A stretch of 48,804 bases of DNA, taken from the NCBI GenBank assembly GCA_024278915.1, contig JAJRSG010000301.1, positions 1 to 48,804 of the forward strand, given 5' to 3'. A program made the translations under genes and the position numbers. Shown piece by piece: positions 32,957 to 34,908 of the stretch; position 1 is the stretch's first letter; every line of letters starts with the position of its first letter. The DNA is from Alphaproteobacteria bacterium (GTDB taxonomy: Bacteria; Pseudomonadota; Alphaproteobacteria; Caulobacterales; Maricaulaceae). The notes below the pieces were generated by a model. The model was not told the DNA's origin and made no database searches. It was given only the letters and a program-made list of their open reading frames with translations.

Positions 32957-33715
32957 ATGACCCCCGAAGAAGTCCAGAGATATAGCCGACAAATCTTGCT
33001 CAAAGAAATTGGTGGTGTTGGACAAAATGCTTTAAAGGCGGCCCGTGTTTTAATTGTTGGTGCAGGGGGATTAGGGGGGCCAAGTGGGCTATACCTTGCG
33101 GCGGCGGGTGTCGGTAAAATCGGAATCATTGATGATGACTATGTCGAGCTTTCTAATTTACACCGACAAATCCAATTTAAAACGGCAGATATTAGCGCGT
33201 CAAAAGTAGACAGCCTTGGCAATTCACTGCGGCAGCTAAATCCGCATATTGTCACGGGGCATCACTTTGAACGCCTTACGGACGAAAATGCAATGTCCAT
33301 ACTCAAGGACTATGATGTGGTTCTCGATGGGTGTGATAATTTTCAGACACGGTTTGCAGTTAACAAAGCTTGTCTTTCCTTATCAATTCCCTTGGTTTCC
33401 GGCGCTCTTGGTCGATTTGACGGGCAGTTGTCAGCATTTAAAAATGACGGGCAATCAACCTGTTATCGATGCTTTGTGCCTCATGAACCAGAGGGCATCG
33501 AAAGCTGTGCTGCTGTCGGGGTGTTAGGCGCAATGGCCGGGATGATCGGCTCTATGATGGCATTAGAGGCCATGAAAATTATAACGGGAGCAGGGGAGCC
33601 ATTGTATAATAAACTGTTCTTGTTTGACGGTCTTTCGGCAAATGCTCGCACAATAAACCTGCCTCGCGACCCATCTTGTCCAGCGTGTTCATCCGCAAAT
33701 ATTTTGGCGAGGTAG
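32957..33715 (+). CDS. moeB: MoeB/ThiF/HesA-family adenylyltransferase
   Basis: An E1-like enzyme that adenylates the C-terminus of a sulfur-carrier protein (MoaD or ThiS). It shows RYSRQILLKEIGG, the nucleotide loop IVGAGGLGGPSG, DDDYVELSNLHRQIQF with the Arg finger, and the zinc Cys pairs (CYRCF and CPACS). At 252 aa it lacks the rhodanese domain of MoeZ. The MoeB role is favoured by the moa/moe/mob genes in the region, but ThiF cannot be excluded. It is the last gene of the operon. Confidence 0.9.
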   Translation: MTPEEVQRYSRQILLKEIGGVGQNALKAARVLIVGAGGLGGPSGLYLAAAGVGKIGIIDDDYVELSNLHRQIQFKTADISASKVDSLGNSLRQLNPHIVTGHHFERLTDENAMSILKDYDVVLDGCDNFQTRFAVNKACLSLSIPLVSGALGRFDGQLSAFKNDGQSTCYRCFVPHEPEGIESCAAVGVLGAMAGMIGSMMALEAMKIITGAGEPLYNKLFLFDGLSANARTINLPRDPSCPACSSANILAR

Positions 33716-33871
33716 AAACAAAACAACCCTCCTCTGATGTGTGGTTCAGAGAAGGGTTGCTTCTAGTACAACACCGCAAAGAGCTGGGGAGTTCTTGGGT
33801 CTTGTACGCGCCCCGGTTCAAAATCAAATAATAGCTGCAATCAATTATTTGAAAACCGGATTCAAACTTAG
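33716..33871 (-). ncRNA. Candidate stand-alone small RNA gene, about 155 nt
   Basis: Between convergent moeB and the hydroxyacid dehydrogenase lies a complete-looking small transcription unit. It has a promoter (TTGAGA-16-TAAAAT), a hairpin CCGGTT..CAAATAAT / ATTATTTG..AACCGG (33804-33859), a second helix GTACAA/TTGTAC closing a loop rich in CCC and CUC, and a terminal hairpin AACCCTTCTCTGA / TCAGAGGAGGGTT followed by GTTTTGTTT. No ORF fits. It does not match what I remember of 6S, SRP, tmRNA or RNase P RNA. The strand is set by the promoter and the T run. Confidence 0.5.
33720..33758 (-). terminator. Terminator hairpin between moeB and the hydroxyacid dehydrogenase
   Basis: AACCCTNCTCTGA and TCAGAGNAGGGTT form a stem of about 12 pairs with one mismatch and an 8-nt loop. 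The T run is good on the minus strand (GTTTTGTTT) and weak on the plus strand (GCTTCT). It may stop both the small RNA and moeB transcripts. Confidence 0.7.
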
Positions 33872-33877
33872 GCTAAT

Positions 33878-33905
33878 ATTTTACCAGATTTGCGAAATTT
33901 CTCAA
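33878..33905 (-). promoter_or_regulatory. Sigma70-type promoter of the candidate small RNA
   Basis: TTGAGA (33905-33900) and TAAAAT (33883-33878) with a 16-nt spacer, each one base from consensus. It lies after the dehydrogenase stop codon and points away from that gene, so it can only serve the small RNA. Confidence 0.6.
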
Positions 33906-33921: not shown

Positions 33922-34908
33922 CTATTCAGGAGGTAAAACTCGGTCAGGACATCTATGCCCATCTACGAAGGCACGGATGTTAATCATGACCTTTTCGCCC
34001 ATTTCAATTCGCGATTCCAAAGTTGCCGAAGCAATGTGGGGGGTTAGGATGACATTCGGGAGTTCCAAGAGGCCAGAATTGACTTTTGGTTCGTTTTCGT
34101 AAACATCAAGGCCTGCTCCGGCAATTTTTTTATTGGCTAAGGCTTCGGCCAAGGCGGCTTCATCAATAATTTCACCGCGAGACACATTAATCAAAATTCC
34201 GTGGCTTTGCATTTTGGCCAAGCGGTCTGCATCAAACAAATGATGGGTTTGGGGGGTATAGGGGCAGTTGATCGAAACCATATCAACAGTGCCGAGCATC
34301 GCGTCCAAATCGTCCCAATAACGTGCACCAAGCTCGCTTTCGATAGGGGCGGATAGGGGGCGGCGGTTGTGGTAATGCACACCGAGGCCGAATGCGTGGG
34401 CGCGCCTTGCGACGGCCTGCCCAATCCGGCCCATGCCGACAATCCCTAGCTTTTTACCGCGAACCCTTTGACCTAAAATACCTGTCGGTGTCCAGCCTGA
34501 AAACCCACCTGTACGGACGAGCTTGTCTGCTTCGACCAATCGACGCGGAACGGCCAAGATGAGCGCTAGAACAAAATCTGCTGCATCTTGGGTCAGTACA
34601 TCAGGGGTATTGGTGATCAAGATACCTTTATCGTGGGCAGCTTTGCGGTCAATATGATCTGTGCCTGCACCAAAATTTGCAATCAGCTTTAGGTGTGGGC
34701 CAGCGGCTTCGATAATGTCTTTGTCAATATTGTCGGTGAGGGTGGGTACCAGTACATCGGCTTGCTGCACGGCTTCGATGAGTTCTTGTTTATTAAAGGG
34801 ACGATCGTCGGGGCGCAGGCGAGCTTCAAACAAATCGCTTAGCCGCTCATGCACGGTATCGGGTAGTCTTCTGGTGACAATTATTTTTGGCTTTTGTGAT
34901 GATGTCAT
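33922..34908 (-). CDS. D-2-hydroxyacid dehydrogenase (glyoxylate/hydroxypyruvate reductase-like)
   Basis: An NAD(P)-dependent reductase of 2-oxoacids. It has the NAD loop LGIVGMGRIGQAVARRA, catalytic Arg in NVSRGEIIDEAAL, Glu in VYENEP and His in LTPHIASAT. The N-terminal pattern KIIVTRRLPDTVHERLSDLF resembles GyaR-type glyoxylate reductases and D-glycerate dehydrogenases; exact substrate unknown. At 328 aa it is complete and appears monocistronic. Confidence 0.92.
   Translation of the reverse strand: MTSSQKPKIIVTRRLPDTVHERLSDLFEARLRPDDRPFNKQELIEAVQQADVLVPTLTDNIDKDIIEAAGPHLKLIANFGAGTDHIDRKAAHDKGILITNTPDVLTQDAADFVLALILAVPRRLVEADKLVRTGGFSGWTPTGILGQRVRGKKLGIVGMGRIGQAVARRAHAFGLGVHYHNRRPLSAPIESELGARYWDDLDAMLGTVDMVSINCPYTPQTHHLFDADRLAKMQSHGILINVSRGEIIDEAALAEALANKKIAGAGLDVYENEPKVNSGLLELPNVILTPHIASATLESRIEMGEKVMINIRAFVDGHRCPDRVLPPE

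Follow-up and report, generated by a model that had tools for sequence, protein, structure and literature searches.

A C-rich-loop small RNA family of the Maricaulaceae associated with a D-2-hydroxyacid dehydrogenase gene, with a probable role in trans

Described small RNAs and the locus in Maricaulaceae

The general-stress small RNA (sRNA) GsrN of Caulobacter crescentus is a structured molecule in which an exposed C-rich loop pairs with G-rich mRNA sites; it is transcribed from a sigma-T promoter, its homologues are usually located by ecfG/nepR/phyR, and BLAST matches to it are limited to Caulobacteraceae (PMC5869019). NfeR1 (alpha-r14) of rhizobia has three hairpins, a housekeeping promoter and an anti-Shine-Dalgarno C-rich unpaired motif, with CCUCCUCCC in all three hairpins (PMC10746234). 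In Rhodobacter, CcsR1-4 (cuckoo RNAs) are four homologous RNAs encoded behind a DUF1127 gene (PMC10253847). Our literature search returned almost no sRNA work for Maricaulaceae. Here we analyzed a stretch of 48,804 nucleotides from a member of this family (hereafter the window), in which an unrecognised sRNA gene had been predicted from the sequence. The gene, of about 156 nt, occupies 33716..33871 on the minus strand, with its start placed according to the promoter and its end according to the terminator. As the original prediction stated, it fills the gap between two convergent genes: a moeB/ThiF-family gene on the plus strand (32957..33715; PF00899, E 6.9e-75) and a D-2-hydroxyacid dehydrogenase gene on the minus strand (33922..34908; PF02826, E 2.6e-61). 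Since the RNA lies downstream of the dehydrogenase gene and on the same strand, its terminator probably serves that gene as well.

The sRNA comes from the same order as GsrN (Caulobacterales in GTDB) and also has an exposed C-rich loop (CUCCCCAG / UCCCCCAAUU). However, its promoter is of the housekeeping type (TTG - 16 nt - TG - TA) rather than the sigma-T (EcfG) type, and its neighbours are moeB/cysK and the dehydrogenase gene instead of ecfG/nepR/phyR, a location to which C. crescentus itself is an exception. With NfeR1 it shares the three hairpins, the housekeeping promoter and the anti-Shine-Dalgarno C-rich unpaired motif, but there is a single CUCCCC motif, in one C-rich loop, where NfeR1 has CCUCCUCCC three times; it also differs in the invariant loop of its first hairpin and in having no Rfam match. 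The CcsR RNAs are stress sRNAs made with their upstream gene, which resembles the 3' untranslated arrangement found in other genera (see below), whereas the RNA family described here is single copy, lies behind the dehydrogenase gene and a metallo-beta-lactamase-fold gene, and has no DUF1127 neighbour according to Pfam and tblastn searches. No Rfam 15 family, including SRP, tmRNA, RNase P and the alphaproteobacterial sRNAs held there, scored above its gathering threshold, in agreement with the earlier failure to match the RNA to 6S, SRP, tmRNA or RNase P RNA, and a permissive search gave chance-level matches only. The 6S RNA covariance model (RF00013), which recovers Caulobacter 6S as a control, gave no match, and none of the members of the wider family is present in Rfam. 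By the features tested, the RNA is not a member of 6S, GsrN, alpha-r14 or CcsR. Our analysis points to a real RNA family that is new and of a functional kind already known, for which a trans-acting antisense role may be proposed.

Structure and conservation within the genus

Inspection of the minus strand upstream of the sRNA revealed the layout TTGAGA-16-(TG)-TAAAAT, with the -35 hexamer at 33900..33905 and the -10 hexamer, preceded by TG (extended -10), at 33878..33883. This promoter match is by itself not significant (3 found vs 1.3 expected), but the spacing of the TTG is kept in most relatives: TTG - 15-17 nt - TA with a preceding TG was found in 10/15 sequences of the genus, and weaker versions in the remaining ones. 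The predicted transcript (33871-33716, minus strand) folds at -58.2 kcal/mol (z -6.25), with none of 200 shuffled sequences being as stable, and the plus-strand fold of 33716-33871 is weaker (z -4.79). Three hairpins, all on the minus strand, are obtained. H1 (33812..33860), defined by fold and covariation, exposes the loop AUUGCAG (33835..33841), a possible second pairing site that is invariant in 15/15 sequences. H2 (33766..33807), defined by fold and covariation, presents the C-rich, anti-Shine-Dalgarno-like loop CUCCCCAG (33784..33791), the putative target-pairing seed, in which CCCCAG is invariant in 15/15 sequences of the genus. H3 (33720..33763), also defined by fold and covariation, is an intrinsic terminator with an 18-bp stem and a conserved CCACACA loop, and is followed by a U-rich tail whose last bases (GUUUUGUUU) are at 33716..33719; a simple terminator scan did not flag it. 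The hairpins originally described as CCGGTT..AACCGG and GTACAA..TTGTAC, the promoter elements, and the strong terminal hairpin followed by GTTTTGTTT are thus all present in the sequence. In the genus alignment both the AUUGCAG and the CCCCAG loops are 100% invariant, while the arms of H1 (0.70-0.78) and the 5' leader (0.61) vary. An extra 5' hairpin between promoter and H1, which the window lacks, was noticed by eye in a subclade (L006, L008, L009, L011, L012, L014 and L015); it has a GNRA tetraloop and an apparently covarying stem (GCA-GAAA-TGC / GTA-GCAA-TAC).

A DNA similarity search of 99 genomes located the sRNA in 13/13 other genomes of the same genus, a Robiginitomaculum-like genus of Maricaulaceae whose named records are Robiginitomaculum/Hellea-like marine MAGs, and in none of the remaining genomes. 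There is one sRNA place per genome of the genus, with the exception of G008, where two near-identical copies (L014, L016) are each followed by moeB and cysK; we attribute this to probable MAG redundancy (redundant contigs) and discarded it as a duplication. A structure-blind MAFFT alignment (A1) gave the same three hairpins as the fold, and 97.0% of 669 cells could pair. This share falls to 87.4% for the opposite strand, which indicates that the minus strand is the RNA. Compensatory change, on both sides of the pair, was observed in 15/45 pairs; compensatory cells amounted to 57, where shuffled alignments gave 20.4 and slid structures no more than 13, and the covariation score was 0.327, against 0.196 and at most 0.106, respectively. 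The hairpins are therefore conserved and covarying in relatives, and this, along with the absence from Rfam, supports the independent sRNA gene that had been predicted. It is conservation (13/13 genomes, compensatory changes and a conserved promoter), and not the promoter match alone, that places the sRNA above chance. The small RNA is real, far beyond chance. Sequence comparison shows a non-coding RNA, structured and present in single copy, that is strongly selected and does not depend on the genes around it.

A wider family and the history of the locus

Model R1 weakly matched two genomes of another genus, again beside the dehydrogenase gene, and a related core consisting of GGGGCGCG, a hairpin with a (U/C)CCCCCAAUU loop and a terminator was found downstream of that gene in other genera. 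A covariance model (R2) was built from five such core sequences, with the Robiginitomaculum-like genus excluded. R2 had matches in 27/137 genomes of the family, those in five genera carrying the shared context or core; run unfiltered on chosen loci, it found 9/9 genus-1 loci, six of them outside its earlier matches and the window, at 32.1 bits, among the nine. Since each genus member tested is recovered by a model made only from other genera, the core, consisting of H2 and the terminator, extends across the family, and the conserved gene neighbourhood gives independent support to the R2 core matches. In the window, the R3 and R2 matches delimit the core common to four other genera (GGGGCGCG linker, H2 and H3) at 33716..33820 on the minus strand. 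Compensatory changes affect 27/30 pairs of a combined alignment (A6), with a score of 0.774 vs 0.261 when shuffled, although A6 was fitted to the model and A1 is the cleaner covariation test. With model R3 the window scored 68.4 bits (E 1.5e-12); in a search covering the order (398 genomes) and the class (385 genomes), true members scored at least 56 bits, in five Maricaulaceae genera, the background lay at about 38 bits or less, and nothing convincing was found outside Maricaulaceae. On these searches, the RNA core is a Maricaulaceae-specific family present in five genera.

R2 and R3 matches at about 38 bits or less, whether in other genera, in other families or elsewhere in the class, were rejected, those inspected being terminators without the shared context. 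Two outside-genus matches of a collection-wide pattern scan, in a Planctomycetaceae (L048) and an uncultured alphaproteobacterium (L051), fail model R1 and are attributed to chance. A weak R3 match in another genus (L110; G119, 61914-62005) has CCCCCAAUU in a hairpin loop and lacks the shared gene context; it is either chance or a distant relative.

The common gene order is dehydrogenase, metallo-beta-lactamase-fold gene (PF00753), RNA, and in four other genera the core begins about 10-35 nt past the stop codon of the metallo-beta-lactamase-fold gene. In the Robiginitomaculum-like genus this gene is kept in three genomes, and is lacking in the window and in most others. In another genus, the stretch ahead of the RNA contains at most remnants of it in two genomes. 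Decayed remnants were seen upstream of an intact RNA in this second genus (L055/L071 and L056/L072), clearly in L071 by tblastn and merely suggested by eye in L072. The ancestral position of the RNA is behind the dehydrogenase and metallo-beta-lactamase-fold genes. The short distance to the stop codon in the four other genera, the location of the RNA downstream of the dehydrogenase gene on the same strand, and the lack of an evident terminator between these two would fit an RNA that is no more than the elaborate 3' untranslated end of the dehydrogenase operon with its terminator, an mRNA-stability element with no role in trans. We consider this unlikely, given that the RNA has its own promoter, conserved within the genus, that a terminator has no need of invariant loops, and that the RNA is retained where the upstream genes have disappeared, have decayed or lie at another place: the dehydrogenase gene is not within 7.8 kb in G008 and L040, nor is the metallo-beta-lactamase-fold gene in G008. 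The RNA is also present in G007 and G010, where moeB was not found downstream.

H1 and the own promoter were seen only in the Robiginitomaculum-like genus, including the species that retain the metallo-beta-lactamase-fold gene, and so appear to be older than the loss of that gene. A possible, still tentative history of the stand-alone sRNA would begin with a C-rich hairpin-terminator in the 3' untranslated region of the dehydrogenase/metallo-beta-lactamase-fold operon in Maricaulaceae, which in the Robiginitomaculum-like genus would have acquired a promoter of its own, together with a second hairpin bearing an invariant loop, before surviving the loss of its carrier gene; in another genus it would, in parallel, have been kept after that gene decayed. 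The direction, from 3' untranslated region to stand-alone gene, is what we infer from these arrangements.

Proposed mode of action

We favour, with some confidence, a free-standing, Maricaulaceae-specific sRNA acting in trans by antisense pairing. Transcription would start at its own housekeeping-type promoter, probably with additional read-through from the dehydrogenase gene, and would end at H3 and the U-tail. The C-rich H2 loop (CUCCCCAG) would pair with G-rich stretches of target mRNAs, mostly ribosome-binding sites, and so probably turn these mRNAs on or off, and the invariant H1 loop AUUGCAG could be a second pairing or a protein-binding site. Regulation in trans is suggested by the exposed C-rich loop, the precedents of GsrN and NfeR1, and the presence of an hfq gene in 14/14 genomes. 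That the RNA is expressed and pairs in trans, the direction in which it regulates and a contribution of Hfq are matters of inference. Against this reading, the H2 loop is CCCCAGCUC in the Robiginitomaculum-like genus vs CCCCCAAUUG in other genera, and with a width of only some 4 nt in the predicted fold it could pair only if the apical stem were partly opened.

Perfect loop complements (GCTGGGGAG) upstream of ATG were searched for in the 14 genomes; plain duplex energies, which take no account of internal structure, gave no useful information. Around 22 distinct sites next to an ATG were obtained, more than in the reversed control, and no target was conserved among them. Complement sites were shared in two genes only, one being an internal coding site and the other the leader of a LysR-type regulator, present in three related genomes and absent from other orthologs, with no ortholog found in the window's genome. 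This leader (L137, L144, L158; leaders L162-L164) contains AGCTGGGGAG, which complements the sRNA loop perfectly over 10 nt, in three sister genomes only (G002, G007 and G012); a further G-rich repeat is present as well, and the ribosome-binding site is GGGGAG.

The invariance of the loops, including AUUGCAG, which has no obvious target, could also reflect protein contacts in a sponge or 6S-like RNA rather than antisense pairing, and a search of this genome with the Rfam 6S model gave no 6S RNA. However, with about 92% of the genome present, a missing 6S is uninformative, and the three separate hairpins do not form the 6S-type long-range 5'-3' helix with a central bubble; such a protein-binding RNA seems quite improbable. 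A small-protein-coding or dual-function RNA is hardly credible and coding potential was rejected, for although short frames of 12-31 codons occur in most sequences, none is common to them, the G008 copies have none, the frames are broken by indels and the changes follow base pairing, which upholds the earlier statement that no ORF fits.

The preferred reading, a trans-acting antisense sRNA, concerns a well-supported, unlisted RNA family that is now added to marine Maricaulaceae and is ready for an Rfam entry. Beyond the original prediction, which proposed no mechanism, this work adds the wider family, its history beside a metallo-beta-lactamase-fold gene and the motifs kept invariant in the loops. 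As related genomes still preserve intermediate stages, the family could be used to test how 3' untranslated sRNAs become independent genes, and also how anti-Shine-Dalgarno loops evolve (CCCCCAAUU vs CUCCCCAGCU).
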